Positions 17,500-64,000 of a stretch of DNA of 64,000 bases are shown in pieces. Position numbers and translations under genes: made by a program. The stretch's first letter is position 1. Every line of letters begins with the position of its first letter. The notes under the pieces were generated by a model, which saw only the letters and a program-made list of their open reading frames with translations, was not told where the DNA came from and searched no databases. The stretch lies in assembly GCF_024662215.1 (NCBI RefSeq), contig NZ_CP096115.1, positions 1,054,001 to 1,118,000 on the forward strand, read 5' to 3'. Source of the stretch: Methanoplanus endosymbiosus (GTDB taxonomy: Archaea > Halobacteriota > Methanomicrobia > Methanomicrobiales > Methanomicrobiaceae).

Positions 17500-17520
17500 A
17501 ATAATCAAATGTAATTCAGC

Positions 17521-22398: not shown

Positions 22399-22479
22399 CA
22401 GACATTGCCATTATACTATACAGAATTATCCGGAACAAAGCCTGCGCTAAAGAAGTAAAACCCTGAAAAGAAGTTGTAA

Positions 22480-22553
22480 CGGGCCTGAAGGGAGTTGAAC
22501 CCCTGGCCTACGGATTAAGAGTCCGTCGCTCTGCCTGACTAAGCTACAGGCCC
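22480..22553 (-). tRNA. tRNA-Lys (anticodon CTT), copy 1
   Basis: On the minus strand the acceptor arms GGGCCTG and CAGGCCC pair perfectly, with discriminator G. The anticodon arm ACGGA-CTCTTAA-TCCGT presents CTT, decoding AAG. The T arm AGGGG-TTCAACT-CCCTT is normal with one G-T pair. No intron is present and CCA is not encoded. A T-rich tract follows (TTCTTTTCAGGGTTTT). Confidence 0.95.
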
Positions 22554-22805
22554 ACAACTGCGCCTCTGCGCCTACATAACTTATACTTACATTATTTTAG
22601 AACTTCCGGTTTTGATCTCTCCGGTTTAAACCAATGAGGAGAGACAAAAGTCCCGGCTATATTTTCAGAAACAAACAGGTTTTTCCGGCAGAGTCAAACC
22701 AGGCGGCTGCTCAGCGATAAAATTCAGACCATAGATAAAAAAATAACAATTCCGGGACGCAGAAAATCATAATTACTGAGAAAAAACCCTGAAAAGAAGT
22801 TGTAA

Positions 22806-22879
22806 CGGGCCTGAAGGGAGTTGAACCCCTGGCCTACGGATTAAGAGTCCGTCGCTCTGCCTGACTAAGCTACAGGCCC
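22806..22879 (-). tRNA. tRNA-Lys (anticodon CTT), copy 2
   Basis: Identical over all 74 bases to the copy 326 bp away. This one is the upstream copy in the direction of transcription, since both are on the minus strand. CCA is not encoded; a T6 tract follows downstream. Confidence 0.95.
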
Positions 22880-22920
22880 ACAACTGCGCCTTTGCGCCTA
22901 CATAACTAGCATGTGGAACA

Positions 22921-38557: not shown

Positions 38558-39892
38558 ATGGATGCACTCATTATACTCGCTCTTACTCTCATTCTGATAA
38601 CTGCACTTGCATTTTCAAGGAAAGTGCCGGTTTTTATCACCCTTTTGATGAGTGCCCTATTCTTCGGGCTTCTTGCCGGGTTTGATCCGGATACAGTCAT
38701 AAAATGGGCTATTGCAGGCATGGGGAGGGTGTTCTCCGGATTTGCAATCATTATTCTGTCAGGCATAGTAATTGTCAGGCTTCTCTCTGATCAAAATCTC
38801 CTCTCTGCTATGATGTACGGGATAAACAGACGGATAAAGAACCCGTGCATCAGTGCCGGAATTTTAGGTTATCTCCTCTCGGTTCCGACAACCTGCTGTA
38901 TTACAACCTATATGATGCTGGCACCGGCACTGAAGGGAACAGATAATGTTATCTCAGGGGCCGATAATTCCGGTAGTGATATAAATTCCGGGAATCAGAA
39001 GAGATCAAATACACTTCTGTACACGCTGGCAACCGGAAGCATAATCTCCTATGTATTTATATTCCCAACACCGGTGACAATTCCTCTGTTTGTGGCTTTC
39101 GCACCGGAATTTCCGGCATTCTCATTTGATCTGCTTGCAATACCGGTATCAGTTATCTCTCTTCTGGTGCTGATCGGGGTTTTCTGCAGGAGATACAAAT
39201 CAGAAGAGTGGGGGGATGCTGCCCGGAATAAGGATGACAATGAACCGGACGGTGAGATCGCCCTGAAGACTCAGCTTAGGGCATGGGCACCATTTCTTAC
39301 ATTTCTGCTTACTATTCCGGCAGGGCTGTTTATACTCAAACTCTCCCATGCAACCCTCATGCAGTTCATCATGCTTATGGCAATGATAACCGCATTAATT
39401 CTTGCCCCCGATGAGAAGAGAAAGAAGAGCTTTTCAGAGGGTGCAAAATTTGCAGGGCTTATCCTCTTTGATTTCTGTGCCGCAGGAGCTATAGGAAGTG
39501 TAATCTCAGAGTCAGGCCTTGCCAACAGTGCGTTTGATAGCATGCTGCCGGTAATGCCGGCAATTGTGATACCTTTCCTGACCGCAGCAATGCTTGCAAC
39601 CGCACAGGGGTCAAGGGTTGTAACAGCTGTAATCTCGGCTGAGATTATCGGCAAAAGTGCACTTGCGGACATCATACACCCTGTGCCCTTAATTCTCATG
39701 ATAATTGCAGGGACATGCTGTATATCATACTTAACAGATCCTTACTTCTGGCTTGTAAAAAAGACAACCGGAGATGATATAGGAACTGTTCTGAAGAATT
39801 ACACCCTGCCGCTTGCATGCTACGGGATTGTTATTTTTGTGATTGCTCTGATAATGTGGGCATTTGTATTTCCACAGCCGCCCTTCACATAG
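38558..39892 (+). CDS. GntP-like (gluconate/anion permease superfamily) membrane protein
   Basis: 444 residues with about 11-12 predicted helices. The conserved helical-hairpin motifs of the ion-transporter superfamily appear in T-A-A-M-L-A-T-A-Q-G-S-R-V-V-T-A-V and the C-terminal L-T-D-P-Y-F-W-L-V, resembling GntP's A-Q-G-S and N-D-S-G-F-W. A hydrophilic Asn/Ser-rich loop (about 125-150) interrupts the membrane region. Substrate unknown; GntP relatives carry organic anions. It stands alone between the ribosomal operon and the giant surface gene, with which it converges. Confidence 0.75.
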   Translation: MDALIILALTLILITALAFSRKVPVFITLLMSALFFGLLAGFDPDTVIKWAIAGMGRVFSGFAIIILSGIVIVRLLSDQNLLSAMMYGINRRIKNPCISAGILGYLLSVPTTCCITTYMMLAPALKGTDNVISGADNSGSDINSGNQKRSNTLLYTLATGSIISYVFIFPTPVTIPLFVAFAPEFPAFSFDLLAIPVSVISLLVLIGVFCRRYKSEEWGDAARNKDDNEPDGEIALKTQLRAWAPFLTFLLTIPAGLFILKLSHATLMQFIMLMAMITALILAPDEKRKKSFSEGAKFAGLILFDFCAAGAIGSVISESGLANSAFDSMLPVMPAIVIPFLTAAMLATAQGSRVVTAVISAEIIGKSALADIIHPVPLILMIIAGTCCISYLTDPYFWLVKKTTGDDIGTVLKNYTLPLACYGIVIFVIALIMWAFVFPQPPFT

Positions 39893-39965: not shown

Positions 39966-42900
39966 TTATTTTTTCATCTTTCCACGGAGATATATCACAA
40001 AGCCGACCGCAGCAATCAGGGTTATGATTAAGACCCAGGACCACATTGTGGTGCTTCCCGGTACCTTGGGGGTTTTCTCCGGAGTAACTGATTTATCAGG
40101 TTCAGCAGACTGCTGAGCTGTATCCTCTGCAAAGAGAGCATAGTTGCTGAAGTGATCTATGCGAATAGTTACCGTCCTCTTATCAGCATCAGTTTCTCCG
40201 GAAATAATCTCCCATTCGCCGCTTTCGCTGTTATACCATCCCGCTTTTGCATCACTTCCGTATCTGTTCCATTCATCCTCTGTAAGTTTGAATGTCAGAG
40301 TAATTCCGGGTGTGAAGGTGGTACCGTCAGGCGTGCATTCATAGGCATGCAGTATCATAATCTCTCCGGAGATTCTCGTCAGTATAGCATTTGCGACTGC
40401 CGGAACTGAGTTTACAGGCACAGCTACTATACTTATACTATCCTGTATATTTCCGGATGAATCTTTTACGGTAACGCCTGTGCCGATGCTTAAGTATGCT
40501 GATATATCATCTGACCAGATCGTCACCGGCCCTTTGGTTTCACCTTCAGCACCAAGAGGCAGGTCTGCGGAACCGATAAACTCTTCTGGCTCAACTGTTG
40601 CCTGGGCTGTAGGTTCAGCTGTTGCTTTTACAGTAGGTTCAGCTGTCGGGGTAATTACAGGGTCATCATCGTGGCTGCTGCTTCCTCCGCCGCCACCGCT
40701 GCTGTGCCGGGATACAGTTATGAAATTCGCTTTTGCGGCATTTACATCACCATACCCGTTGGTGGCTGTCAGTGAGACAGAGTATGTACCCGGACTCTGG
40801 TAGGTGTGCACCGGATTCTGCTCAGATGAAGTCTGCCCGTCTCCAAATGCCCAGAGCCATGAATGTGGACTGTCTGTGGATGTGTCGGTGAAGCTTACAG
40901 TCAGCGGTGCATAACCACCGGTTGTATCAGCAGTGAAATCAACTGTCATCGGATTTTTAACGGTGATGTAATCCTGTTTTTCAAGCGTGTCAGATCCCTT
41001 AAGATTTGCTATTGTAAGGGTTACATCAAATGTTCCGGTTGAGTTGTAAATGTGTGACGGGTTTTGCAGGGCTGATGTCTTTCCGTCTCCAAAGTCCCAC
41101 TGCCATGAAGCCGGACCGCCATCTGAGAAGTCGTTGAACTGTACCAGGAGAGGTGCATCTCCGGATACCGGGGTTCCTGAGAACTTTGAGACCGGATTAA
41201 TCAGTGGTACAAATCCTACCAGTGCCTTGGATGAGAAACCATTCGGAGACAGACCGGTGAAGGTGTAAATGCTGTCGCTGAAGGTGTAAGTTGTGTCAAG
41301 AATTGTTACTGCACCGTCATCTGAAAGGCTCAGGAGTGAGAAGTTTGCAGGACCTCCCCATCTGCCGACGTAATCTTCAGGTGCTGTCATTACAATGACT
41401 GCATCTGAGACATTGATACCACCGAATGAGGATTTGTTTATCTCCATTGTATAGGCAACTTCCTCAAGTTCAGCATCCAGTTCATTCAGAACGGCAAGCT
41501 GGAAAGCACGCCCCTGGTTTTCATCAACTGCACCACGGGTGATAGTTATATCAAGCTGTGTGGAGGAGTTGGTAAGTGCTGAGAGTCTTCCGGATATGTT
41601 AGCTGAAATTCCGGTGCTGACATGTCCTACATCACCTTCAAGGTTGATGGAATTTGAGATGTTTCCAATCTGTGCTCCGGTGCTGTTGCCTGTCCAGCCT
41701 GAAGAGGAATTTTGCAGACCGGAAGTTTCGATCTTTATTTCAATTCCGGGATTCTGTACTGTGATCGTCTTATTGTCATTTGATATTGTTGCATTCCTGT
41801 TTTCTTCAATGTTTATCGAAACCTGGCCGGTGTTGTCATTATATGTCATATTGCTGACCACCGCCGGCTGATCCTTTTTAAGGGCAGAAGTTACCGGAGT
41901 TATGTTGATAAGTCCGGGTTCCATATCATCAAAAGCATATGTGGCACTGCTTCTTGTCCAGAAAACATTTACAAGTTCAAGCTCACGAACGCATGGCAGT
42001 CCGTTTGAATGGACATTTATGTCAACAAGCTGAATAGGTTCAATTCCTGTCAGGTTTGTTGTAGATGAACCATAGACCTGAAGCCAGCCGTTTTCATTTC
42101 TGATGACTGAATTTACCGATAGGTCAGGCACTGTGCCATTTGCACGAACATCTATAATCGACATGACAGTCCTGTTGAACTCCATGATGAAGGAGATATT
42201 TCTGACCTCATTGAGGCCGGAGGCACTGACTGTCAGGTATTTGGAGGACTCAACCGGAAGTGTGCCGCTTGGTGCTCCTATTACGGTACGCATCTCGACA
42301 TCGATTGCACCGTCTCTGGAGATTACATGGCACTCCTTACCATATGAGCAGGCTTCTGTCTGTGTAAATGTAATTGGTGAAGTTTCTCTGAGTGTTGTCA
42401 AATTGGAAACTGCTTTGAAGTTTATTTCCGCAATTCCGGCCTTGTTTTTAGATGTTATTCCGGAATTGTCAGTGATGTTTATTGTGAGCAGGCCGTTTGT
42501 GTTATCAATTGTGTCCCTGAAGTCAGAACCTTTGGTTAATTCTGAGGCGGATGCATTCTCAACCGTAATTAATTCAGGGTTGTATGAAAGAACGAAGTTC
42601 ATCTCTGTTATATTGTCAAGAGCTTCACCTGTTACCGGGAATTTAACTATGTCTCCTGATGGAATTCTGCCTGATGGTGCATAGAGCATTATTGTAGAGA
42701 TGTCAGTTGCTGTGATGTAGTCTGTCTTTATGCTCGTATTACTGCCGTACGGGTTGGTTGTCGTAAGGCTGACATTATAAACTCCTTCTTCTGTGTAGAT
42801 GTGTACCGGACTTTGTTCTGATGAAACATCTCCATCTCCGAATGACCAGCTCCACGACTGTGGGTTACCTATGGTTGTATCAGTAAAGGTCACATGAAGC

Positions 42901-45900
42901 GGTGTTTCACCTGACAATGGTGTTGCAGTGAATGAGGTCACTGGTTTTGTTCCTGACGGGACGAGAACAAATTCTGCCTTGGTTGTATCACCGGCTGTTA
43001 CTGTTACAGTCTTTTTACTGTCGTAATACAGGGATTTTTTAAGCAGGATTTCATGGGTTCCTGCCGGAATTTCAGGCAGAGTGTTATTGGTCAGTACTGA
43101 TGTGTTCTCACCGTCAAGCCATATCCAGGCATTGCCTGGTGAGGAGATGACAGTGATGTTTCCGGTCTTCTGCACAAGGTAAAAGAATACATCGGTTGTT
43201 TGGTCTTTGTTTACAACTACGCTTTTGTTTACTGACGGATAGTAGCCGGATTTTTCAACTGTAATATTATGGATTCCGGCTGAAACACCTTCAAGAGTGC
43301 TGTTGGTCAGTTGCCCTGTGTAGTTGCCGTCAAGCCAGATTACAGCTCCCGGCGGACTGCTGGCCACCCTTATGCTACCAGAGTCATGATCGGGAACAAG
43401 CTCAAATGAAACCTGTGAACTATCACCTTTGACAACTGTGATGGTTCTGTTTGCAGGTGTGACATAGCCGGATTTTATCACCGTCAGGTTGTGATCACCT
43501 GAACTTACATTCAGAAGTGTCGTATTAGTGAAATCTCCGGTCAGGATACCATCAAGCATAACACTGCCATTGCCAGGGGTACTGTTGACCACAATGCTGC
43601 CGGTGTCATGATCGGGAACAAGCTCAAATGAAACCTGTGAATTCTCACCTTTGACAACTGTGATGGTTCTGTTTGCAGGTGTGACATAACCGGATTTTAT
43701 GACAGTCAGGTTGTGATCGCCCGAACTTACATTCAGAAGTGTCGTATTGGTGAAATCTCCGGTCAGGATACCATCAAGCATAACACTGCCATTGGCAGGG
43801 GTACTGTTGACCACAATGCTGCCGGTGTCATGATCGGGTTCAAGGTTAAAGCTTACCTCCGAAATTTCACCTTTGGTTATTGTGACAGTCTTATTTAATG
43901 GAGTAAAGTAACCGGACTTGACCACAGTTATGTTGTAAGTTCCAACTGGTTTGTCGGCCAGGGTTACATTGGTCAGTTTGCCGGAATCTGTGCCATTGAG
44001 ATACACCATAGCTCCGGAAGGAGTGGAGTTGATCTGCAAAGTGCCGGTCTGCTCGGTTAAGTCAAAGATGACTGCCTCAGTTTCACCTTTGCTTAAGGTG
44101 ACTATCTGACTGAAGGAATCGTAACCGGACTTTGTAACAGTTATGTTGTAAGTTCCAACTGGTTTATCGGTTAGGGTTACATTGGTCAGTTTGCCGGAAT
44201 CTGTGCCATTGAGATACACCATAGCTCCGGAAGGAGTGGAGTTGATCTGCAAAGTGCCGGTCTGCTCGGTTAAGTCAAAGCTGACTTCTTCAGTTTCACC
44301 CTTGCTTAAGGTGACTACCTGACTGGAGGAATCGTAACCAGACTTTGTAACAGTTATGTTGTACGTTCCAACCGGTTTGTTGGTCAGGGTTACATTGGTT
44401 AATTCACCGGTGTCTGTGCCATTGAGATACACCATAGCTCCGGAAGGAGTGGAGTTGATCTGCAAAGTGCCGGTCTGCTCGGTTAAGTCAAAGATGACTG
44501 CCTCAGTTTCACCTTTGCTTAAGGTGACTATCTGACTGAAGGAATCGTAACCGGACTTTGTAACAGTTATGTTGTAAGTTCCAACTGGTTTATCGGTTAG
44601 GGTTACATTGGTCAGTTTGCCGGAATCTGTGCCATTGAGATACACCATAGCTCCGGAAGGAGTGGAGTTGATCTGCAAAGTGCCGGTCTGCTCGGTTAAG
44701 TCAAAGCTGACTTCTTCAGTTTCACCCTTGCTTAAGGTGACTACCTGACTGGAGGAATCGTAACCAGACTTTGTAACAGTTATGTTGTACGTTCCAACCG
44801 GTTTGTTGGTCAGGGTTACATTGGTTAATTCACCGGTGTCTGTGCCATTGAGATACACCATAGCTCCGGATGGAGTGGAGTTGATCTGCAAAGTGCCGGT
44901 CTGCTCGGTTAAGTCAAAGATGACTGCCTCAGTTTCACCCTTGCTTAAGGTGACGATCTGACTGGAGGAATCATAGCCGGACTTTGTAACAGTTATGTTG
45001 TACGTTCCAACCGGTTTGTCGGATAAGGTGGCGTTGGTTAACTCACCGGTGTCTGTGCCATTGAGATACACCATAGCTCCGGAAGGAGTGGAGTTGATCT
45101 GCAAGGTTCCAACCTGACTGACAAGGTCAAAGCTGACTGCCTCAGTTTCACCTTTGCTTAAGGTGACGATCTGACTGGAGGAATCATAGCCGGACTTTGC
45201 AACTGTTATGTTGTAAGTTCCAACCGGTTTTTCGGATAAGGTGGCGTTGGTTAACTCACCGGTGTCTGTGCCGTTGAGATACACCATAGCTCCGGAAGGA
45301 GTGGAGTTGATCTGCAAGGTTCCAACCTGACTGACAAGGTCAAAGATGACTGCCTCAGTTTCACCTTTGCTTAAGGTGACTATCTGACTGAAGGAATCGT
45401 AACCGGACTTTGTAACAGTTATGTTGTAAGTACCAACCGGTTTGTCGGATAAGGTTACATTGGTTAATTCACCAGTGTCTGTGCCGTTGAGATACACCAT
45501 AGCTCCGGACGGTGTGGAATTGATCTGCAAAGTGCCGGTCTGCTCAGTCAGGTCAAAGATGACTGCCTCAGTTTCACCTTTAGCCAGTGTCACAATACGA
45601 CTGGAGGAATCGTAACCAGACTTTGTAACAGTTATGTTGTAAGTTCCAACCGGTTTGTCGGCCAGGGTTACATTGGTTAATTCACCGGTGTCTGTGCCGT
45701 TAAGATACACCATAGCTCCGGAAGGAGTGGAGTTGATCTGTAAAGTGCCGGTCTGACTGACAAGATCAAAGATGACTGCCTCAGTTTCACCTTTGCTTAA
45801 GGTGACTATCTGACTGGAGGAGTCATAGCCGGACTTTGTAACAGTTATGTTGTAAGTTCCAACCGGTTTGTCGGATAATGTGGCGTTGGTTAACTCACCG

Positions 45901-48900
45901 GTGTCTGTGCCGTTGAGATACACCATAGCTCCGGAAGGAGTGGAGTTGATCTGCAAGGTTCCAACCTGACTGACAAGGTCAAAGATGACTGCCTCAGTTT
46001 CACCTTTGATTAAGGTGACTATCTGACTGAAGGAATCGTAACCGGACTTTGTAACAGTTATGTTGTAAGTACCAACCGGTTTGTCGGCCAGGGTTACATT
46101 GGTTAATTCACCGGTGTCTGTGCCATTGAGATACACCATAGCTCCGGAAGGAGTGGAGTTGATCTGCAATGTTCCAACCTGACTGACAAGGTCAAAGATG
46201 ACTGCCTCAGTTTCACCTTTGCTTAAGGTGACTATCTGACTGAAGGAATCGTAACCGGACTTTGTAACAGTTATGTTGTACGTTCCAACCGGTTTGTTGG
46301 TCAGGGTTACATTGGTTAATTCACCGGTGTCTGTGCCATTGAGATACACCATAGCTCCGGATGGAGTGGAGTTGATCTGCAAAGTGCCGATCTGCTCGGT
46401 TAAGTCAAAGATGACTGCCTCAGTTTCACCTTTGCTTAAGGTGACGATCTGACTGGAGGAATCATAGCCGGACTTTGCAACTGTTATGTTGTACGTTCCA
46501 ACCGGTTTGTCGGATAAGGTGGCGTTGGTTAACTCACCAGTGTCTGTGCCATTGAGATACACCATAGCTCCGGAAGGAGTGGAGTTGATCTGCAAGGTTC
46601 CAACCTGACTGACAAGGTCAAAGATGACTGCCTCAGTTTCACCTTTGCTTAAGGTGACTATCTGACTGAAGGAATCGTAACCGGACTTTGTAACAGTTAT
46701 GTTGTAAGTACCAACCGGTTTGTCGACCAGGGTTACATTGGTTAATTCACCGGTGTCTGTGCCATTGAGATACACCATAGCTCCGGAAGGAGTGGAGTTG
46801 ATCTGCAAAGTGCCGGTCTGCTCGGTTAAGTCAAAGCTGACTTCTTCAGTTTCACCCTTGCTTAAGGTGACTACCTGACTGGAGGAATCATAGCCTGACT
46901 TTGTAACAGTTATGTTGTAGGTTCCAACCGGTTTGTCGGCCAGGGTTACATTGGTTAACTCGCCGGTATTTGTGCCGTTGAGATATACCATAGCTCCGGA
47001 AGGAGTTGAGTTGATCTGCAAGGTACCGGTATGCTCAGTCAGGTCAAAGCTGACTTCTTTGGTTTCATCCTTGCCTAAGGTGACTATCTGACTTGAAGAG
47101 TCATAGCCGGACTTTGAAACTGTTATGTTGTAAGTTCCAACCGGTTTGTCGGATAAGGTGGCGTTGGTTAACTCACCAGTGTCTGTGCCGTTGAGATAAA
47201 CCATAGCTCCGGAAGGAGTCGAGTTGATCTGTAATGTTCCAACCTGACTGACAAGGTCAAAGCTGACTGTCTCAGTTTCACCCTTGCTTAAGATGACTAC
47301 CTGACTGGAGGAATCGTAACCGGACTTTGAAACTGTTATGTTGTAGGTTCCAACCGGTTTGTCGGATAAGGTGACGTTGGTTAACTCGCCGGTCTCTGTG
47401 CCGTTGAGATAAACCATAGCTCCGGAAGGAGTCGAGTTGATCTGCAAGGTACCGGTCTGCTCAGTCAGGTCAAAGCTGACTGTCTCAGTTTCACCCTTAC
47501 CTAAAGTGACTATCTGACTGGAGGAATCGTAACCGGACTTTGTAACAGTTATGTTGTAGGTTCCAACCGGTTTATCGGTTAGGGTTACATTGGTTAACTC
47601 GCCGGTCTCTGTGCCGTTGAGATAAACCATAGCTCCGGAAGGAGTCGAGTTGATCTGCAAGGTACCGGTCTGCTCAGTCAGGTCAAAGCTGACTTCTTTG
47701 GTTTCATCCTTGCTTAAGGAGACTATCTGACTGGAGGAGTCATAACCGGACTTTGTAACAGTTATGTTGTAGGTTCCAACTGGTTTGTCGGCCAGAGTTA
47801 CATTAGTTAATTCACCGGTGTCTGTGCCGTTGAGATAAACCATAGCTCCGGAAGGAGTCGAGTTGATCTGCAAGGTACCGGTATGCTCAGTCAGATCAAA
47901 GCTGACTTCTTTGGTTTCATCCCTGCTCAGGGTGACTACCTGGCTGGAATTGTCATAACCGGTCTTGACCACTGTAATATTGTAGGTTCCAACCGGTTTG
48001 TCGGATAAGGTGGCGTTGGTTAACTCACCAGTGTCTGTGCCGTTGATGTAGATCATAGCTCCGGAAGGAGTGGAGTTGATCTGTAATGTTCCAACCTGAC
48101 TGACAAGGTCAAAGCTGACTGTCTCAGTTTCACCCTTACTTAAGATGACTACCTGACTGGAGGAATCGTAACCGGACTTTGAAACTGTTATGTTGTAGGT
48201 TCCAACCGGTTTGTCGGCCAGAGTTACATTGGTTAATTCACCGGTGTCTGTGCCGTTGAGATAAACCATAGCTCCGGAAGGAGTCGAGTTGATCTGTAAT
48301 GTTCCAACCTGACTGACAAGGTCAAAGCTGACTTCTTTGGTTTCATCCTTGCCTAAGGTGACTATCTGACTGGAAGAGTCATAGCCGGACTTTGTAACTG
48401 TTATGTTGTAGGTTCCAACCGGTTTGTCGGCCAGAGTTATATTGGTTAATTCACCGGTGTCTGTGCCGTTGAGATAAACCATAGCTCCGGAAGGAGTCGA
48501 GTTGATCTGTAATGTTCCAACCTGACTGACAAGGTCAAAGCTGACTTCTTTGGTTTCATCCTTGCCTAAGGTGACTATCTGACTGGAAGAGTCATAGCCG
48601 GACTTTGTAACTGTTATGTTGTAGGTTCCAACCGGTTTGTCGGTCAGGGTTACATTGGTTAATTCACCGGTGTCTGTGCCGTTGAGATAAACCATAGCTC
48701 CGGAAGGAGTTGAGTTGATCTGCAAGGTACCGGTCTGCTCAGTCAGGTCAAAGCTGACTGTCTCAGTTTCACCCTTACCTAAAGTGACTATCTGACTGGA
48801 GGAATCGTAACCGGATTTTACAACAGTTATGTTGTAAGTACCAACCGGTTTGTCGGCCAGAGTTACATTAGTTAATTCACCGGTGTCTGTGCCGTTGAGA

Positions 48901-51900
48901 TATACCGTAGCTCCGGAAGGAGTCGAGTTGATCTGCAATGTGCCAACCTGACTGACAAGGTCAAAGCTGACATCTTCAGTTTCATCCCTGCTCAGGGTCA
49001 CAACCTGGCTGGAGTTATCATAACCGGATTTAACAACTGTAATATTGTAACTGCCAACCGGAATGTCAGAGAGAGTTGTATTTGTCAGTTCTTCCGTAGA
49101 TGTTCCGTTAAGGTAGATCATAGCTCCGGAAGGAGTCGAGTTGATCTGCAACGTTCCAACCTGACTGACAAGGTCAAAGCTGACGTCTTCAGTTTCATCC
49201 CTGCTCAGGGTCACAACCTGGCTGGAATTGTCATAGCCGGATTTAACCACTGTAATATTGTAACTGCCAACCGGAATGTCAGAGAGAGTTACATTGGTTA
49301 ATTCACCGGTGTCTGTGCCGTTGAGATATACCATAGCTCCGGAAGGAGTCGAGTTGATCTGCAATGTGCCAACCTGACTGACAAGGTCAAAGCTGACTTC
49401 TTCAGTTTCATCCTTGCCTAACGTCACAACCCGGCTGGAATTGTCATAACCGGATTTAACAACTGTAATATTGTAACTGCCAACCGGAATGTCAGAGAGA
49501 GTTGCATTTGTCAGTTCTTCAGTAGAGGTTCCGTTAAGGTAGATCAGAGCACCGGAAGGAGTTGAGTTGATCTGCAACGTGCCAACCTGACTGACAAGGT
49601 CAAAGCTGACTGTCTCAGTATCTCCTTTGCTTAAGGTCACAACCTGGCTGGAATTGTCATAGCCGGATTTGACAACTGTAATATTGTAAATGCCAACCGG
49701 AATGTCAGAGAGAGTTGCATTTGTCAGTTCTTCAGTAGAGGTTCCGTTAAGGTAGATCATAGCTCCGGAAGGAGTTGAATTGATCTGCAATGTGCCAACC
49801 TGACTGACAAGGTCAAAGCTGACTTCTTCAGTTTCACCCTTGCTTAAGGTGACTATCTGACTGGAAGAGTCATAGCCGGATTTGACAACTGTAATATTGT
49901 AACTGCCAACCGGAATGTCAGAGAGAGTTGCATTTGTCAGTTTTTCGGTAAAGGTTCCGTTAAGGTAGATCATAGCTCCGGAAGGAGTTGAGTTGATCTG
50001 CAACGTGCCAACCTGACTGACAAGGTCAAAGCTGACATCTTCAGTTTCATCCCTGCTCAGGGTCACAACCTGGCTGGAATTGTCGTAGCCAGATTTGACA
50101 ACTGTAATATTGTAACTGCCAACCGGAACGTCAGAGAGAGTTGCATTGGTCAGTTCTTCAGTAGAGGTTCCGTTAAGGTAGATCAGAGCACCGGAAGGAG
50201 TTGAATTGATCTGCAATGTGCCAACCTGACTGACAAGGTCAAAGCTGACTTCTTCGGTTTCATCCCTGCTCAGGGTAACAACCTGGCTGGAGTTGTCATA
50301 ACCGGATTTAACAACTGTAATATTGTAACTGCCAACCGGAATGTCAGAGAGAGTTACATTGGTTAATTCACCGGTGTCTGTGCCGTTGAGATAAACCATA
50401 GCTCCGGAAGGAGTTGAGTTGATCTGCAACGTTCCAACCTGACTGACAAGGTCAAAGCTGACGTCTTCAGTTTCACCCTTGCCTAACGTCACAACCTGAC
50501 TGGAATTGTCGTAGCCGGATTTAACAACTGTAATATTGTAAATGCCAACCGGAATGTCAGAGAGAGTTGCATTTGTCAGTTCTTCCGTAGATGTTCCGTT
50601 AAGGTAGATCATAGCTCCGGAAGGAGTCGAGTTGATCTGCAATGTGCCAACCTGACTGACAAGGTCAAAGCTGACTTCTTCGGTTTCATCCCTGCTCAGG
50701 GTCACAACCTGGCTGGAATTGTCATAGCCGGACTTGACCACTGTAATATTGTAACTGCCAACCGGAATGTCAGAGAGAGTTACATTGGTTAATTCACCGG
50801 TGTCTGTGCCGTTGAGATATACCATAGCTCCGGACGGTGTGGAATTGATCTGTAAAATGCCAGTCTGCTCAGTCAGGTCAAAACTAACTTCTTCAGTTTC
50901 ACCCTTGCTTAAGGTGACTATCTGACTGGAAGAGTCATAGCCGGACTTGACCACTGTAATATTGTAACTGCCAACCAGAATGTCAGAGAGAGTTACATTG
51001 GTTAATTCACCGGTGTCTGTGCCGTTGAGATATACCGTAGCTCCGGAAGGAGTCGAGTTGATCTGCAATGTGCCAACCTGACTGACAAGGTCAAAGCTGA
51101 CTTCTTCGGTTTCATCCCTGCTCAGGGTCACAACCTGGCTGGAATTGTCATAGCCGGACTTGACAACTGTAATATTGTAACTGCCAACCAGAATGTCAGA
51201 GAGAGTTACATTGGTTAATTCACCGGTGTCTGTGCCGTTGAGATATACCATAGCACCGGAAGGAGTTGAGTTGATCTGCAAAGTTCCAACCTGACTGACA
51301 AGGTCAAAGCTGACTGTCTCAGTATCTCCTTTGCTTAAGGTCACAACCTGGCTGGAATTGTCATAGCCGGATTTGACAACTGTAATATTGTAACTGCCAA
51401 CCGGAATGTCAGAGAGAGTTGCATTTGTCAGTTCTTCAGTAGAGGTTCCGTTAAGGTAGATCAGAGCACCGGAAGGAGTTGAGTTGATCTGCAATGTTCC
51501 AACCTGACTGACAAGGTCAAAGCTGACTTCTTCGGTTTCATCCCTGCTCAGGGTCACAACCTGGCTGGAATTGTCATAACCGGATTTGACAACTGTAATA
51601 TTGTAACTGCCAACCGGAATGTCAGAGAGAGTTACATTTGTCAGTTCTTCAGTAGAGGTTCCGTTAAGGTAGATCAGAGCACCGGAAGGAGTTGAGTTGA
51701 TCTGCAATGTGCCAACCTGACTGACAAGGTCAAAGCTGACTTCTTCGGTTTCATCCCTGCTCAGGGTTACAACCCGGCTGGAGTTGTCATAGCCGGATTT
51801 GACAACTGTAATATTGTAACTGCCAACCGGAATGTCAGAGAGAGTTGCATTTGTCAGTTCTTCAGTAGAGGTTCCGTTAAGGTAGATCAGAGCACCGGAA

Positions 51901-54900
51901 GGAGTTGAGTTGATCTGTAAAATGCCAGTCTGCTCAGTCAGGTCAAAACTAACTTCTTCAGTTTCACCCTTGCTTAAGGTGACTATCTGACTGGAAGAGT
52001 CATAGCCGGACTTTGTAACTGTTATGTTGTAAGTACCAACCGGTTTGTCGGTCAGGGTTACATTGGTTAATTCACCGGTGTCTGTGCCGTTGAGATATAC
52101 CGTAGCTCCGGAAGGAGTCGAGTTGATCTGCAATGTGCCAACCTGACTGACAAGGTCAAAGCTGACGTCTTTGGTTTCATCCCTGCTCAGGGTAACAACC
52201 TGGCTGGAATTGTCATAGCCGGATTTAACTACTGTAATATTGTAACTGCCAACCGGAATGTCAGAGAGAGTTGCATTTGTCAGTTCTTCAGTAGAGGTTC
52301 CGTTAAGGTAGATCATAGCTCCGGAAGGAGTTGAATTGATCTGCAATGTGCCAACCTGACTGACAAGGTCAAAGCTGACTTCTTCGGTTTCATCCCTGCT
52401 CAGGGTAACAACCTGGCTGGAGTTGTCATAACCGGATTTAACAACTGTAATATTGTAACTGCCAACCGGAATGTCAGAGAGAGTTGCATTTGTCAGTTCT
52501 TCAGTAGAGGTTCCGTTAAGGTAGATCAGAGCACCGGAAGGAGTTGAGTTGATCTGCAACGTGCCAACCTGACTGACAAGGTCAAAGCTGACTGTCTCAG
52601 TATCTCCTTTGCTTAAGGTCACAACCTGGCTGGAATTGTCATAGCCGGATTTGACAACTGTAATATTGTAAATGCCAACCGGAATGTCAGAGAGAGTTGC
52701 ATTTGTCAGTTCTTCAGTAGAGGTTCCGTTAAGGTAGATAATAGCTCCGGAAGGAGTTGAGTTGATCTGCAACGTGCCAACCTGACTGACAAGGTCAAAG
52801 CTGACGTCTTTGGTTTCATCCCTGCTCAGGGTAACAACCTGGCTGGAGTTGTCATAACCGGATTTAACTACTGTAATATTGTAACTGCCAACCGGAATGT
52901 CAGAGAGAGTTGCATTTGTCAGTTCTTCAGTAGAGGTTCCGTTAAGGTAGATCATAGCTCCGGAAGGAGTTGAATTGATCTGCAATGTGCCAACCTGACT
53001 GACAAGGTCAAAGCTGACTTCTTTGGTTTCATCCCTGCTCAGGGTAACAACCTGGCTGGAGTTGTCATAACCGGATTTAACAACTGTAATATTGTAACTG
53101 CCAACCGGAATGTCAGAGAGAGTTGCATTTGTCAGTTCTTCAGTAGAGGTTCCGTTAAGGTAGATCATAGCTCCGGAAGGAGTTGAATTGATCTGCAACG
53201 TGCCAACCTGACTGACAAGGTCAAAGCTGACGTCTTTGGTTTCATCCCTGCTCAGGGTAACAACCTGGCTGGAATTGTCATAGCCAGATTTAACAACTGT
53301 AATATTGTAAGTCCCGATTGGAGTATCAGAAAGCGTTGCATTGGTCAGTTCTTCAGTAGAGGTTCCGTTAAGGTAGATCATAGCTCCGGAAGGAGTTGAA
53401 TTGATCTGCAACGTGCCAACCTGACTGACAAGGTCAAAGCTGACGTCTTTGGTTTCATCCCTGCTCAGGGTAACAACCTGGCTGGAATTGTCATAGCCGG
53501 ACTTGACCACTGTAATATTGTAACTGCCAACCGGAATGTCAGAGAGAGTTACATTGGTTAATTCACCGGTGTCTGTGCCGTTGAGATATACCATAGCACC
53601 GGAAGGAGTTGAGTTGATCTGCAAAGTTCCAACCTGACTGACAAGTTCAAAGCTGACTGTCTCAGTATCTCCTTTGCTTAAGGTCACAACCTGGCTGGAA
53701 TTGTCGTAGCCGGATTTAACAACTGTAATATTGTAACTGCCAACCGGAATGTCAGAGAGAGTTGCATTTGTCAGTTCTTCCGTAGAGGTTCCGTTAAGGT
53801 AGATCATAGCTCCGGAAGGAGTTGAGTTGATCTGCAACATTCCAACCTGACTGACAAGGTCAAAGCTGACTTCTTCGGTTTCATCCCTGCTCAGGGTCAC
53901 AACCTGGCTGGAATTGTCATAGCCGGACTTGACCACTGTAATATTGTAACTGCCAACCGGAATGTCAGAGAGAGTTGCATTTGTCAGTTCTTCAGTAGAG
54001 GTTCCGTTAAGGTAGATCATAGCTCCGGAAGGAGTTGAGTTGATCTGCAATGTTCCAACCTGACTGACAAGGCCAAAGCTGACGTCTTTGGTTTCATCCC
54101 TTCTCAGGGTAACAACCTGGCTGGAATTGTCATAGCCAGATTTAACTACTGTAATATTGTAACTGCCAACCGGAATGTCAGAGAGAGTTGCATTTGTCAG
54201 TTCTTCCGTAGATGTTCCGTTCAGGTAGATCATAGCTCCGGAAGGAGTTGAGTTGATCTGTAATGTTCCAACCTGACTGACAAGGTCAAAGCTGACTTCT
54301 TCAGTTTCACCCTTGCCTAACGTCACAACCTGACTGGAATTGTCGTAGCCGGATTTAACAACTGTAATATTGTAACTGCCAACCGGAATGTCAGAGAGAG
54401 TTGCATTGGTCAGTTCTTCAGTAGAGGTTCCGTTAAGGTAGATCATAGCTCCGGAAGGAGTTGAATTGATCTGCAACGTGCCAACCTGACTGACAAGGTC
54501 AAAGCTGACGTCTTTGGTTTCATCCCTGCTCAGGGTAACAACCTGGCTGGAATTGTCATAGCCGGACTTGACCACTGTAATATTGTAACTGCCAACCGGA
54601 ATGTCAGAGAGAGTTGCATTTGTCAGTTCTTCCGTAGATGTTCCGTTAAGGTAGATCAGAGCACCGGAAGGAGTTGAGTTGATCTGCAATGTTCCAACCT
54701 GACTGACAAGGTCAAAGCTGACTTCTTCGGTTTCATCCCTGCTCAGGGTCACAACCTGGCTGGAATTGTCATAGCCGGACTTGACCACTGTAATATTGTA
54801 ACTGCCAACCAGAATGTCAGAGAGAGTTGCATTCGTCAGTTCTTCAGTAGAGGTTCCGTTAAGGTAGATAATAGCTCCGGAAGGAGTCGAGTTGATCTGC

Positions 54901-57900
54901 AAAGTTCCGACCTGCCGGGACAGAGTGAAACTCACAGATTCAGTCTGATCTTTACCAAGTGTCACAACACGGCTGGAGTTGTCATAACCGGATTTAACAA
55001 CTGTAATATTGTAACTGCCAACCGGAATGTCAGAGAGAGTTGCATTTGTCAGTTCTTCAGTAGAGGTTCCGTTAAGGTAGATCATAGCTCCGGAAGGAGT
55101 CGAGTTGATCTGCAAAGTTCCGACCTGCCGGGACAGGGTGAAACTCACAGATTCAGTCTGATCTTTACCAAGTGTCACAACACGGCTGGAGTTGTCATAA
55201 CCGGATTTAACAACTGTAATATTGTAACTGCCAACCGGAATGTCAGAGAGAGTTGCATTTGTCAGTTCTTCAGTAGAGGTTCCGTTAAGGTAGATCATAG
55301 CTCCGGAAGGAGTCGAGTTGATCTGCAAAGTTCCGACCTGCCGGGACAGGGTGAAACTCACAGATTCAGTCTGATCTTTACCAAGTGTCACAACACGGCT
55401 GGAGTTGTCATAACCGGATTTAACAACTGTAATATTGTAACTGCCAACCGGAATGTCAGAGAGAGTTGCATTTGTCAGTTCTTCAGTAGAGGTTCCGTTA
55501 AGGTAGATAATAGCTCCGGAAGGAGTCGAGTTGATCTGCAATGTGCCAACCTGACTGACAAGGTCAAAGCTGACATCTTCAGTTTCATCCCTGCTCAGGG
55601 TCACAACCTGGCTGGAATTGTCGTAGCCAGATTTGACAACTGTAATATTATAAGTCCCAACCGGAATGTCAGAGAGAGTTGCATTTGTCAGTTCTTCAGT
55701 AGAGGTTCCGTTAAGGTAGATCAGAGCACCGAAAGGAGTGGAGTTAACCTGCAAAGTACCGGTCTGCTGAGTCAGGCTGAAATTAACTAACTCAAGACCG
55801 CCTTTGACAAGAGTAACTTCATCGCTGGCATTGTCATATCCTTCAAGCTCAACGGTTACGTTGTAAGTGCCAGCCGGATAATTGGTGAACGTGAAGTTCG
55901 TGAAATTGCCGGTGCTGACTCCGTCAATATAGATTAAAGCGTCAGCAGGAGTAGAATTAACCTGCAAAGTACCGGTCTGCTGAGTCAGACTGAAATTAAC
56001 TAACTCAAGACCGCCTTTGACAAGAGTCACTTCCTCACTGGCGTTGTCATAACCTTCGAGTTCAACGGTTACGTTGTAGGTTCCTACCGGATAATTGGTG
56101 AACGTGAAGTTGGTGAAATTGCCGGTGCTGACTCCATCAAGATAAATCAGGGCATTGGCTGGGGTAGAGTTGACCTGCAGATTACCAACAGAGCGTGTAA
56201 GATTAAACACCGCAACCCGGGTACCATCACCTGGGAGGACCAATACCTCAGATTCAGAATCATAACCCGTCAGCTCAATTGTAACATTATACTCCCCGGC
56301 AACCTGCTCAGTAAAGGTATGATTGGTTACAAAACCAGAATCCATTCCATTCAGGTAAATCGTAGCATTTTGTGGAACAGATTCAATCTGCAGAGTTCCG
56401 GTTTCAAACGTCATCCACTGGAATATCGGATATTTTGATTTTGAATCAAACGCCCTCCAGATTTTAGAATTATCACTGGAAGTGCTTATTATATCGGCCG
56501 ACCATTTAAGGCCATCAGAATCCACAATTCCGGTGAGGAAATCATAGTCCTTAAACCTGGTAACATCTGTAACCAGAGTTCCATAACCGGAAACACCAGT
56601 GGTATAACGGTAACAGTTTGTAAACGTTGAACCATCATTTAAACCCAAAAGTCCTCCATATTCTCCCACTGCAGTAGCAGTGCCTGTTGCATAACTGTTG
56701 GTTATTGTAGAACTATACCGGTTAAGCCCGACAAGACCACCAGCATGGAGATTCGCAGCTCTGGCATTACCAGTTGCATAACAATTCTCTATTGAACCGC
56801 CATTCTCATTGGTCCCTACAAGTCCTCCAATATCATCTATATCACCCGTTGAATTACCGGTTGCATAACAGTTCGTTATACTGCCGCCATTATTCCAGCC
56901 AACCAGACCTCCGTTTGCGTAATTAGGTGCATACACATCACCGGATGCTGTACAGTTATTAATTGCTCCCAGATTCTGTCCAACAAGACCACCGGCATGT
57001 TTGTCACTGCCTGTGACATCACCTGTTGAATAGCAGTTACCGATTTCTCCGCCAGCCTCATTATAACCAACAAGACCCCCATTATTGATTTTGCCTGTGA
57101 TATTTCCCTCAGAATGACACCCGTCCACTGTTCCCGTATTCCACCCGACAAGGCAGCCTACATTATCACCAGTGGCAACTGTATCTCCTGTCGCAGAGCA
57201 GTTTTCAATTGCACCGGAATTCCGGCCGGCAATAATACCAACATTATTTGTTCCTTTTACTCCAGCACCGGCAGTTTCAATATTTAAATCTCTTATAGCT
57301 CCGCCGGAGCCGACATATCCAAATAGACCAACATAATCTGAACCGCTTTCATCCAGCGTAAAATTAAAGATTGAATGTCCCCGACCGTCAAAATCTCCAT
57401 TAAACTGAATTGTAGAATTACCAATAGCAGATTCCGGACCACCATCAGCGAGATCAATATCATCAGTCAGAATGAAATATTTGTTCCAATCGCCAGGATT
57501 ATCAGACAGGCGTATAATGCAGTCACTATTACTCAATTCATACGGATTTTCTTTTGTACCATTTCCTCCACCATATTCCGGAACTAATGCAAATGTGACA
57601 ACTTCAATATCACCCTTTGTAAGATTTACATCTTCATATGCAGATTTATAACCTGTTTTTGCTACAGTGACATTATATATGCCCTCCGGAATCTGAGAAA
57701 TAGTTGTATTAGTTAATTCCCCAGTATCAAACCCGTTTAAGTAAACTGTAGCTCCATCAGGATCTGAATTAATCTGAAGAGTTCCATTTCCAAAACCAGA
57801 AGACTGCCACTGGAAGAATGGATACTGGCACTTATATGTGGATACTCTCCATGTTTTCGATAAATCAGCATCAGTGCTGATTATGCCTGTTGACCAGTTC

Positions 57901-60900
57901 AGACCGTTATTTTCCGTACTTCCGGTGAGGAAATCATAGTCCCTGAATTTAGTTATATCAGAAATATGGATGCCGTAACTGTTGCCATTATCAGCATAAC
58001 GATAACAGTTTATTCCCGAACCATAATTCTGCCCAAAAAGACCACCGGCATATTCCGTTGCAGTGGCATTGCCTGTTGCATAACAGTTTATTAAATAGCC
58101 ATGATAATCATTATAACCAACAAGACCGCCGGCATAATTATAATAAGAATTGACATTGCCCGTTGCATAACAGTTTGTTATTCTACCTTCATTATATCCT
58201 ACAAGACCACCGGTTTGATATTTTGCAGTGGCACTGCCCGTTGCATAACAGTTTGTTAAGTTGCCGGAATTAGAACCGGCAAGACCACCAGCATGGTCAT
58301 TCGCAGTGGCATTGCCTGTTGCATAACAATTCGTCAGTGAGCCACCATCATTACTGCCAACAAGACCGCCGGCATAATTACGTCCCGCAATGACATTCCC
58401 GGTTGCAGAACAATTGGTTATTGTACCGGAATTCCATCCGACAAGACAGCTTGCATTATCTCCCACAGATGTGGAGTCACCTGTCGCAGAGCAGTTTTCA
58501 ATTGCACCGGAATTCCGGCCGGCAAGAATACCAACATTATTATTTCCTTTTACTCCAACACCGGCAGTTTCAATTTTTAAATCGCTTATAGCTCCGCCGG
58601 AACCGACATATCCAAATAGACCAACATAATCTGAACCGCTTTCATCCAGCGTAAAATTAAAGAATGAATGCCCATGACCGTCAAAATCTCCATTAAACTG
58701 AATTGTAGAATTACCAATAGCAGATTCCGGACCACCGGCAGAGAAATCAATATCATCAGTCAGGACGAAAGATTTGTCCCAATCGCCAGGATTATCAGAC
58801 AAGCGTATAATGCAGTCACTATTACTCAATTCGTACGGATTTTCTTTTGTACCATTTCCTCCACCATATTCCGGAACTAATGCAAATGTGACAACTTCAA
58901 TATCACCCTTTGTAAGATTTACATCTTCATATGCAGAGTGATAACCGGAAAGCTCAACAGTTACGTTGTAGGTTCCCACAGGATAATTGCTGAAGGTGAA
59001 ATTGGTGGAATTGCCCGTGCTGACTCCATCAAGATAAATCAAGGCATTGGACGGAGTAGAATTCACCTGCAAAGTACCGGTCTGCTGAGTCAGACTGAAA
59101 TTAACTAACTCAAGACCGCCTTTGGCAAGAGTAACTTCATCGCTGGCGTTGTCATAGCCGTCAAGTTCAACGGTTATGTTGTAGGTTCCTACCGGATAAT
59201 TGCTGAACGTGAAGTTAGTGGAATTGCCGGTGCTGACTCCGTCAATATAGATTAAAGCGTCAGCAGGAGTAGAATTAACCTGCAAAGTACCGGTCTGCTG
59301 AGTCAGACTGAAATTAACTAACTCAAGACCACCTTTGGCAAGAGTCACTTCATCGCTGGCGTTTTCATAGCCGTCAAGTTCAACGGTTATGTTGTAGGTG
59401 CCAACCGGATAATTGGTGAACGTGAAGTTAGTGGAATTGCCGGTGCTGACTCCGTCAATATAGATTAAAGCGTCAGCAGGAGTAGAATTAACCTGCAAAG
59501 TACCGGTCTGCTGAGTCAGACTAAAGTTGACGAACTCAAGACCACCTTTGGCAAGAGTCACTTCATCGCTGGCGTTGTCATAGCCGTCAAGTTCAACGGT
59601 TATGTTGTAGGTTCCTACCGGATAATTGCTGAACGTGAAGTTAGTGGAATTGCCGGTGCTGACTCCATCAAGATAAATCAGAGCACTGGAAGGTGTAGAA
59701 TTAACCTGCAAAGTACCGGTCTGCTGAGTCAGACTGAAATTAACTAACTCAAGACCACCTTTGGCAAGAGTCACTTCATCGCTGGCGTTGTCATATCCTT
59801 CAAGCTCAACGGTTACGTTGTAGGTGCCAACCGGATAATTGGTGAACGTGAAGTTTGTGGAATTGCCGGTGCTGACTCCGTCAATATAGATTAAAGCGTC
59901 AGCAGGAGTAGAATTAACCTGCAAAGTACCGGTCTGCTGAGTCAGACTGAAATTAACAAACTCAAGACCGCCTTTGGCAAGAGTAACTTCATCACTGGCG
60001 TTGTCATAGCCGTCAAGTTCAACAGTTACGTTGTAGGTGCCAGCCGGATAATCCGAGAACGTAAAGTTGGTATAATTGCCCGTGCTCTCGCCGTCTATGT
60101 AGATCAGGGCGTTGGCAGGGGTGGAATTAACCTGCAAAGTACCGGTCTGCTGAGTCAGACTGAAATTAACTAACTCAAGACCACCTTTGGCAAGTGTCAC
60201 TTCATCGCTGGCGTTGTCATAGCCGTCAAGTTCAACCGTTACGTTGTAGGTGCCAACCGGATAATTGGTGAACGTGAAGTTCGTGGAATTGCCGGTGCTG
60301 ACTCCATCAAGATAAATCAGGGCATTGGATGGAGTAGAATTAACCTGCAAAGTACCGGTCTGCTGAGTCAGACTGAAATTAACTAACTCAAGACCACCTT
60401 TGGCAAGTGTCACTTCATCGCTGGCGTTGTCATAGCCGTCAAGTTCAACCGTTACGTTGTAGGTGCCAGCCGGATAATTGCTGAACGTGAAGTTGGTGGA
60501 ATTGCCGGTGCTGACTCCGCCAATATAGATTAAAGCGTCAGCAGGAGTGGAATTAACCTGCAAAGTACCGGTCTGCTGAGTCAGACTGAAATTAACTAAC
60601 TCAAGACCGCCTTTGGCAAGAGTAACTTCATCACTGGCGTTGTCATAGCCTTCAAGTTCAACGGTTACGTTGTAGGTGCCAACCGGATAATCCGAGAACG
60701 TAAAGTTGGTATAATTGCCCGTGCTCTCGCCGTCTATGTAGATCAGGGCGTTGGCAGGGGTGGAATTAACCTGCAAAGTACCGGTCTGCTGAGTCAGACT
60801 GAAATTAACTAACTCAAGACCGCCTTTGACAAGAGTCACTTCATCGCTGGCGTTGTCATAGCCGTCAAGTTCAACAGTTACGTTGTAGGTTCCAACAGGA

Positions 60901-63900
60901 TAACTGCTGAAAGTGAAGTTGGTATAATTACCAGTGCTCTCGCCGTCAATGTAGATCAGAGCGTTTGAAGGAGTAGAATTAACCCGCAGAGTGCCGACCT
61001 GTCTTGACAAAGTGAAGTTGACCTCACCAACAGTTCCACTGGCAATATTTACAGAATTGGTGGCATTGTCATAGCCGTCAAGCTCAACTGTCACATTGTA
61101 GGTTCCAGCCGGATAATTGGTGAACGTGAAGTTGGTATAATTACCAGTGCTCTCGCCGTCAATGTAGATCAGAGCGTTTGAAGGAGTAGAATTAACCCGC
61201 AGAGTGCCGACCTGTCTTGACAAAGTGAAGTTGACCTCACCAACAGTTCCACTGGCAATATTTACAGAATTGGTGGCATTGTCGTAGCCATCAAGTTCTA
61301 CGGTTACGTTGTAGGTGCCAGCCGGATAATCCGAGAACGTAAAGTTGGTATAATTGCCGGTGCTGACTCCGTCAAGATAAATCAGGGCATTGGATGGGGT
61401 AGAGTTGACCTGCAGATCACCAACAGAGCGTGTAAGATTAAACACCGCAACCCGGGTATCATTACCTGGAAGGACCAATACTTCAGATTCAGAATCATAA
61501 CCCGCCAACTCAATTGTAACATTATACTCCCCGGCAACCTGCTCAGTAAAGGTATGATTGGTTACAAAACCAGAATCCATTCCATTCAGGTAAATCGTAG
61601 CATTTTGTGGTACAGATTCAATCTGCAGAATTCCGGTTTCAAACGTCTCCCACTGGAATATCGGGTATTTGGATTTTGAATCAAACGCTCTCCAGATTTT
61701 AGAATTATCACTGGAAGTGCTTATTATATCGGCCGACCATTTAAGGCTGTGATATAATTTTGTTCCAGTGAGGAAGTTATAGTCCCTGAATTCCGTTATA
61801 TCAGAAATATAGATGCCACCATAGCCTCCGGATTTATTATAACGATAACAATTATCTATGTCATTGAGGCTACTGCACCCAGTAAGACCGCCGGCATAGT
61901 TACTCGCAGTGCCACTGCCCGTTGCATAACAATTTGTTAAGGTACTATCAGGGGAATTATAACCAACAAGACCACCGGCATAATTACCAGAAGCAGTGGC
62001 ATTGCCTGTTGCATAACAGTTTGTTATTTTGCCCTTATTATTTCTACCAACAAGACCACCGGCTTGTTCTGTTGTAGCAGTGGCACCGCCCGTTGCATAA
62101 CAGTTTGTTAAGGTGCTATCTTTATTATAACCATTATAACCAACAAGACCACCGGCTTGCTTTGTAGCAGAAGCATTACCCGTTGCAGAACAATTCGTTA
62201 GGGAGCCACCATTATTCACCCCAACAAGACCACCGGCTTGTTCTGTTGTAGCATTGGCACTGCCCGTTGCATAACATTTTGTTAAGGTGCCAGAATTATA
62301 ACCGGCAAGACCGCCGGCACCAGATTCTGCAGTGGCATTACCCGTTGCATAACAGTTTGTTAAGAGGCCAGAATAAATATGACCAGCAAGACCGCCGGCA
62401 CCAGATTCTGCGGCGGCATTACCCGTTGCATAACAATTTGTTAAGGTGGCATAATTATTAAGATCACCAACAAGACCGCCGGCACCAGATTCTGCGGTGG
62501 CACTGCCCGTTGCAGAACAGTTTGTTAAGGTGCCCCTATCTTTAGAACCAACAAGACCGCCGGCATACTTATTTGCAGTGGCATTGCCTGTTGCATAACA
62601 GTTTGTTAAGAGGCCACTACCATCATAACCAACAAGACCACCGGCAGATTCTGTTGTAGCATTGGCACTGCCCGTTGCATAACTATCTGTTATGGTACTG
62701 GTATCAGATTTAGAACTAGAACCAACAAGACCGCCGGCATACTTATTTGCAGTGGCATTACCTGTTGCATAACAGTTTGTTAAGGTGTTAGCCAAATCAT
62801 AACCAGCAAGACCACCGGCATGTTCTATTGTAGCAGTGGCACTGCCTGTTGCAGAACAGTTTGTTAAGGTGCTATAATAACTAATACCAACAAGACCACC
62901 GGCATAATCACGTCCCGCAATGACATTCCCGGTTGCAGAACAGTTGGTTATTTTGCCATTTCGATTATAACCAGCAAGACCACCGGCTTGCTTTGTAGCA
63001 GAAGCATTACCCGTTGCAGAACAATTCGTTAGGGAGCCACCATCATTCTTCCCAACAAGACCACCGGCAGAACCACCAGCAGCAGTGGCATTGCATGCTG
63101 CAGAACAGTTGATTATTGTACCGGAATTCCATCCAACAAGACCGCCGGCATAATTACGTCCCGCAATGACATTCCCGGTTGCAGAACAGTTGGTTATTGT
63201 ACCGGAATTCCATCCAACAAGACAGCTTGCATTATCAACCACAGATGTGGAGTCACCTGTTGCAGAACAGTTTTCAATTAAACCACAATTCCAGCCGGCA
63301 AGAATACCAACACTATTATTTCCTTTTACTCCAACACCGGCAGTTTCAATATTTAAATCTCTTATAGCTCCGCCGGAACCGACATATCCAAATAGACCAA
63401 GATTATCTGAACCACTTTCATCCAGCGTAAAATTAAAGATTGAATATACCTGACCGTCAAAACTCCCGGTGAAATAAGTACTAATATTACCTATCGTCTC
63501 AGTAGGTCCGCTTTCATTAAGAGCTATATCATTGACCAGACTAAAATTACTGCCCCAGTCTTCAGAATGTCCGGACAGATAAATCAGATCTTCCTCTGTG
63601 CTGATATTATAAGGGTCATCTGAAGTGCCGCTGCCCCCGCTGTATTTCTGAATCGAAATTAAAGTAAAGTCAAGAGTTTCAGTCTCACCTGATTCAAGCA
63701 CCACAACCGAAAATGCAGGACTGGAAGTATAACCACTATGGGATATTGTTACATTATACATCCCTTCCGGAATCTCAGAGAGAGTTGCATTGGTAGTCCT
63801 GATGGTATCAACACCGTTCAGGAAAACTTCTGCACCCGCCGGAGTCGAGTTTACATTAATAGTGCCAGTACCAAAAGACTGCCACTGAAATATTGGATAG

Positions 63901-64000: not shown

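Follow-up and report, generated by a model that had tools for sequence, protein, structure and literature searches.

The gene and its reading frame

The window (i.e. the whole stretch of DNA analysed, 64,000 nucleotides in length) comprises bases 1,054,001-1,118,000 of the 3,163,021-bp genome of Methanoplanus endosymbiosus, a species described from a marine ciliate; the genome is a single contig and is 99.1% complete. From 39966 to 64000 on the minus strand lies most of one very large gene (approximately aa 1315-9324 plus the TAA, assigned from the ORF and its flanking DNA). The frame is unbroken from the window edge at 63998 to the TAA at 39966, i.e. over 8,010 codons. The gene starts 3,940 bp beyond the window edge with an ATG at genome position 1,121,940, so that window and flanking DNA together give a complete ORF of 9,324 aa. 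A preliminary description of this DNA had reported a single gene of more than 8,000 codons and proposed extension to find its start and signal peptide; the gene is as claimed, and the extension revealed both the ATG and a signal-peptide-like N-terminus. An in-frame stop lies a few codons 5′ of the ATG, which is preceded by GGAG and, ~110 nt upstream, by the AT-rich element TATATTATATATTA.

The predicted protein has a mass of 977 kDa and a pI of 4.1. Its signal-like N-terminal sequence is MECQRFYSGVVGFSYFRVFLLSLFVAILVLTGTVSA-Y, and its C-terminus is STTMWSWVLIITLIAAVGFVIYLRGKMKK. The C-terminal anchor noted earlier corresponds to a predicted transmembrane (TM) helix at aa 9298-9318 (39987..40049, minus strand) followed by RGKMKK. 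It has a hydrophobicity of 2.28 over 19 residues, and the sole comparable segment in the whole protein is the N-terminal signal. An ATG-initiated ORF of 7,931 aa was rejected as the extent of the gene; it is an edge effect, the real ATG being outside the window. Programmed recoding was rejected for a frame without stops, as was a compositional island, the GC content being 45.1% in the gene against 45.2% in the first 38 kb of the window.

Domain organization

Pfam profiles confirm PEGA, Glug, PKD and Cohesin domains in the protein, bearing out the GLUG blocks and PKD domains of the preliminary description. In total there are six GLUG blocks, 81 PEGA units, three PKD domains and one C-terminal TM helix. 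The PEGA units (PF08308) score ~40-65 bits against a gathering cut-off of 20.8, and all 34 matches to the 28-residue GLUG motif (PF07581) in the genome fall within this one frame. Alternation of GLUG and PEGA is confined to the N-terminal 3,850 aa, ahead of an uninterrupted array of 63 PEGA units. The part of the gene beyond the window encodes the signal peptide, GLUG block 1 with one PEGA unit, GLUG block 2 with two (i.e. three further PEGA units), and GLUG block 3.

Reading from N- to C-terminus within the window, all on the minus strand, GLUG 3 is followed by a single PEGA unit (63648..63866), GLUG block 4 (61635..63647, Pfam; the longest, with 671 aa) and an array of 13 PEGA units (58866..61634, pattern count). 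GLUG block 5 (57786..58871, Pfam), a further single unit (57573..57785) and GLUG block 6 (56400..57572, Pfam Glug, with a β-strand-rich model) then lead into the 63-unit array (42948..56399). Beyond the array come PKD domain 1 (42705..42950, Pfam), Cohesin domain 1 (aa 8416-8552, 42285..42695) and a second, cohesin-like module (aa 8549-8690, 41871..42296) that is 50-69% identical in relatives. These are followed by a 223-aa linker domain (41205..41873) that has 58-69% identity in close relatives and matches no Pfam family, and by PKD domains 2 and 3 (40707..41195, from Pfam PKD_4/PKD and PDB PKD matches). After a Pro/Thr linker, a conserved membrane-proximal domain (~aa 9121-9275, 40116..40580), again with no Pfam family and with relatives aligning through residue 939 of P0001, precedes the TM helix.

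The protein contains 469 N-X-S/T sequons, compared with 175 ± 11 in shuffled sequence. There are 73 cysteine residues, none of which is in the 63-unit array. No sorting-signal family of NCBIfam was matched, and no Pfam or NCBIfam S-layer domain family was found in the parts scanned. The PKD region has one similarity to a surface layer protein in the PDB, chain 1l0q.

The PEGA array

Pattern searching finds 81 PEGA units, and an independent HMM count gives the same total with 63 in the long array. Thus both the 78 units reported within the window and the uninterrupted array of 63 are exact. The long array occupies aa 3848-8331 and the 13-unit array aa 2103-3025; all other units are single or paired. 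Spacing within the long array is exactly 71 aa for 59 units, and 72-74 aa for the last four. Adjacent units are 87% identical in bases, 62 of the 63 are distinct as DNA, and no exact repeat is longer than 458 bp, on which grounds collapse or inflation of the assembly was rejected; the array length, which is taken from the assembly, is plausible as assembled. The ratio pN/pS in the long array is 0.24 for adjacent units and 0.26 when every pair is compared; the 13-unit array gives 0.32. The combination of a 28-kb open frame with low pN/pS argues that this is the coding sequence of a translated protein under selection. In a comparison that included relatives, the nearest unit belongs to the same protein for 78 of the 81 units, pointing to growth of the array within the lineage.

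It had been noted that PEGA proteins as a rule contain few of these modules. This holds for most other PEGA frames of the genome and fails for the relatives of the gene, which contain runs of 13-39. A smaller PEGA protein of 483 aa encoded within the window (16171-17622) has the usual scale for this genome. On a first look at per-genome counts, many genomes of the order are rich in PEGA among the matches listed, so what is unusual here is the one frame and not the genome total.

Structure prediction of a short segment had also been proposed. An AlphaFold model of four units, built from window sequences only, has a mean pLDDT of 94.9 and 28 regular strands (i.e. seven per unit), so each unit is predicted to be a seven-strand β-sandwich. 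The pTM of 0.63 means that the inter-domain angles are not fixed by the model; the chain may therefore be flexible, and not a straight rod. The best fold matches in the PDB (Foldseek) are stalk and pilin β-sandwiches, i.e. TIE of Bacillus anthracis, BcpA and SdrD, with E-values of 3e-13 to 1e-6. Searching the PDB by PEGA sequence gave nothing meaningful, and by profile only a weak match to carboxypeptidase D. A viral fold search returned generic tail and baseplate β-sandwich likeness only, and we do not argue for a phage origin. The model of GLUG block 6 has a core of short strands resembling a β-helix (pLDDT mostly 77-98) with ends below 50. The nearest folds to this core are the β-helices of IgA1 proteases (3n6z and 6xjb), with weak E-values.

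Cohesins and dockerins

The preliminary description referred to cohesin-like domains. The first is a true Cohesin, matching PF00963 with an E-value of 5.4e-12 and known cohesin structures in addition. Its sequence alone finds the archived cohesin structure 2xdh (E 1.6e-3), and a profile of seven orthologous relatives matches both scaffoldin and archaeal cohesin structures, i.e. the scaffoldin-anchoring cohesin 4uyp at 2.4e-7 and 2xdh ('COHESIN') at 6.8e-6. The second module matches Pfam Cohesin weakly (0.017 alone, 0.0018 for the best member) and has no match in the PDB by profile search, so that it can be called no more than cohesin-like.

There are three cohesin ORFs in the genome, including this one. 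The other two themselves end in dockerins, making the giant protein the only anchored cohesin protein found in the genome. One of the two, of 1,961 aa (C1:2877106-2882988; L120 3106-8988), has a cohesin at its N-terminus and, at its C-terminus, a dockerin of another type (LGDVDNSGGVSISDAQ), and is adaptor-like. Thirteen ORFs contain a dockerin with a duplicated Ca-loop motif. In every one the dockerin is C-terminal, with a signal-like N-terminus ahead and no TM segment after it. Among the proteins so tagged are two subtilases, a papain-like protease that also carries a lectin-like domain, two NHL propellers and several β-helix proteins.

Among 28 genomes of the taxonomic family, all seven that have the full cohesin-bearing C-terminus contain at least three dockerin matches, while only two of the other 21 have any, with one match each (Fisher p = 3e-5, a value that overstates independence since the seven carriers belong to two genera only). 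In archaea, specific cohesin-dockerin bonds have been reported, as have scaffoldin-like proteins of ANME with as many as five cohesins; large scaffoldins had not turned up in archaea in an earlier survey (PMC9012536). Of the properties of a scaffoldin, a surface anchor is provided by the C-terminal TM helix (with predicted topology) and dockerin partners by the 13 ORFs of the genome; where two or more functional cohesins would be looked for, we observe one clear cohesin and one cohesin-like domain. Given these 13 dockerin proteins, the likeliest role for the base is no longer simple anchoring but that of a possible docking platform.

The locus and its relatives

The gene fills 28.7 kb (genome 1,093,873-1,122,620) that on DNA alignment is replaced by 336 bp (2,713,697-2,714,031) in Methanoplanus limicola. 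The left conserved flank is a gene for a GntP-family permease (38558..39892, plus strand), and the segment lacking in M. limicola starts after window base 39872. In that species the GntP permease gene and the HypF gene, which flank the segment here, adjoin each other. With the flanks conserved, the alignment indicates that the 28.7-kb block was either acquired in this species or lost from M. limicola. Immediately upstream of the giant gene is a small divergent PEGA ORF (genome 1,122,780-1,123,469; L009 12780-13469, plus strand) encoding 229 aa with two units and a hydrophobic C-terminus. This ORF and a response regulator gene, both beyond the 28.7-kb segment, are kept in M. limicola at the site without the giant gene. 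A DDE-type transposase gene between the two (L009 13927-15084) is missing there. Elsewhere in the window are two tRNA-Lys(CTT) genes with the same Rfam scores, 250 bp apart (22479-22554 and 22805-22880), and near its start a 32-bp tandem repeat of 4.2 copies (1060-1193).

Full-length relatives of the C-terminal 944 aa, with 53-58% identity, are found within the genus and in a second genus of the family. M. limicola has one, elsewhere in its genome, of 3,701 aa with 13 PEGA units. Those in genomes G009 and G010 have 3,393 aa with 15 units and 3,610 aa with 19, respectively, and that in G013 has ~6,800 aa across one frameshift, with 47 units over two frames. In G114 (57% identical over a 500-aa core) a contig end cuts the gene, leaving at least 2,997 aa and at least 28 units. 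These proteins share with the giant the C-terminal 944 aa, PEGA arrays and, in most, the excess of sequons, and differ in having 13-47 PEGA units against 81; GLUG blocks are present in those with a complete N-terminus. Together they form a series from 13 to 81 units on a common base, which provides material for studying the growth of repeat proteins. Of 232 Methanomicrobiales genomes, 78 match the linker domain, with one 64% match in a genome of another family, and among the matches listed there is no other frame longer than 4,330 codons. A contig search with the giant's C-terminus gave PKD-driven matches only, and no orthologs.

A core gene of M. endosymbiosus is 88% identical to that of M. 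limicola and 47-49% to that of the other genus. The 500-aa core of the giant's C-terminus is 63% identical to that of G009 and 57% to that of M. limicola. Horizontal exchange with the other genus would be a reasonable reading of these values.

Several relatives are disrupted. That of G013 is in two frames, of 2,520 and 4,330 codons, with the break near six consecutive G (L102 ~16430-16496) and due to either a sequencing error or a true frameshift. C-terminus relatives in G008 and at G009:C2:403264-406103 contain in-frame stops, most of them TGA. A core gene of G008 is interrupted likewise, pointing to a poor draft; the second copy in G009 looks like a decayed paralogue.

Probable function

We suggest that the giant protein is a single-chain, membrane-anchored and probably N-glycosylated surface fibre with GLUG heads and a docking site at its base, which we regard, with modest confidence, as the probable reading. 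It is consistent with a complete ORF that is hydrophobic at both ends with no further TM-like segment, and together with the 63-unit array this supports the giant surface protein with a very long PEGA fibre that was originally described. The protein would be exported by Sec, and its C-terminus placed in the membrane. The 63-unit array would form a stalk of ~0.2-0.3 micrometre if extended (0.22-0.28 at an assumed rise of 3.5-4.5 nm per unit). The GLUG β-helices would be held at the tip, contacting another surface or matrix. The secreted dockerin proteins (proteases, NHL propellers and β-helix proteins), which have no anchor of their own, would dock to the cohesin at the base and be retained at the cell. 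Array length would shift via recombination between the 213-bp units, with selection keeping each unit foldable. We note that, with one clear cohesin and 13 known dockerin proteins to pair it with, the question of what cohesins and dockerins do in archaea comes down to a few binding assays.

The adhesion, sheath or prey contact previously proposed might each be inferred for such a protein. Nothing in the analysis points to predation, and a sheath seems unneeded, since a hexagonal S-layer of glycoprotein has been reported as the envelope of the close relative M. limicola (PMC4149034).

The protein might instead be a plain giant adhesin or stalk keeping its GLUG heads off the S-layer, with the cohesin-fold domains as spacers and the dockerins binding elsewhere. 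This is a serious contender, if one that falls short of even chances. The second module is degenerate, and the two other cohesin ORFs could partner the dockerins, which limits our preferred explanation also. Against it, Cohesin 1 scores like true cohesins and co-occurs with dockerins, both being missing in G011, a 94%-complete genome from the genus to which most carriers belong. A mucin-like protective coat, i.e. a brush of acidic and heavily glycosylated protein that hydrates or shields the cell, would be in keeping with the low pI, the sequons and the absence of cysteine from the array, and a shielding role was proposed for halomucin, which is similar in size (PMC1544339). Yet the units are predicted to be ordered, folded β-sandwiches and not disordered mucin, and a brush needs neither GLUG heads nor a cohesin, so we find it improbable.

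The array could alternatively have drifted long by unequal crossing-over in a shorter surface protein, its length having little function in itself. The same C-terminus does occur in relatives with 13-47 units, PEGA units cluster by genome and M. limicola lacks the locus; but selection acting on the units (pN/pS 0.24-0.26) and a 71-aa period kept exactly across 59 of them render neutral expansion rather unlikely. Long tandem arrays are difficult to assemble and this one is known from the assembly alone, so it might be inflated or chimeric. With all but one unit distinct, exact repeats so short, a single contig, an intact frame, and long arrays in independent relatives, we consider such an artefact very improbable.

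At its most ambitious, the docking interpretation would make the protein an archaeal membrane-anchored scaffoldin, in which a 28-kb gene encodes a glycosylated PEGA fibre of ~0.25 micrometre that docks about a dozen dockerin proteins, the block having been gained in one Methanoplanus species and being possibly linked to a life in association with ciliates. This is speculative, and we would hold it doubtful. If true, a methanogen would have a non-cellulosomal but cellulosome-like surface complex.

Comparison with other giant surface proteins

Giant archaeal surface proteins are known in few lineages. A genome in a single contig, a sister species without the locus and repeats that can be distinguished individually make the present one a tractable case. 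Its 9,324 aa place it close to the upper limit of protein size reported for cultivated archaea, without setting a record, since SVXNc_0300 of the nanohaloarchaea has 9,409 aa; this and BNXNv_0298 (8,880 aa) are proteins of DPANN epibionts with a VirB4/TraG-like ATPase domain (PMC10266531). The Methanoplanus protein resembles them as a giant surface protein with a signal peptide, a membrane anchor, Ig-like domains and a pI near 4. It differs in that no such ATPase domain, sought as a test of SPEARE-like character, was matched by Pfam in the segments scanned (the N-terminal 1,980, middle 2,999 and C-terminal 1,544 aa), the rest being PEGA array. Halomucin (Hmu1) of Haloquadratum walsbyi, of 9,159 aa, is mucin-like with many potential modification sites (PMC1544339). 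Judged by size and published description, it too is a secreted giant from an archaeon, and nearly the same in length; in contrast to it, the present protein has ordered PEGA and GLUG modules, a cohesin and a TM anchor.

An anchored cohesin with dockerin-tagged secreted partners is shared with scaffoldins and with the dockerin and cohesin proteins of ANME (PMC9012536). Unlike scaffoldins there is one clear cohesin, on a PEGA/GLUG fibre, the partners are proteases, propellers and β-helices with no cellulose link seen, and the docking is predicted only. The predicted chain of small β-sandwich domains recalls the Gram-positive stalked adhesins and pilins TIE, BcpA and SdrD, from which it differs in being archaeal and TM-anchored, with no detectable sequence homology. 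The literature that we searched contains no account of such an array, or of GLUG together with PEGA in methanogens. Among giant modular surface proteins, this one is set apart by its 63-unit PEGA stalk and cohesin base.
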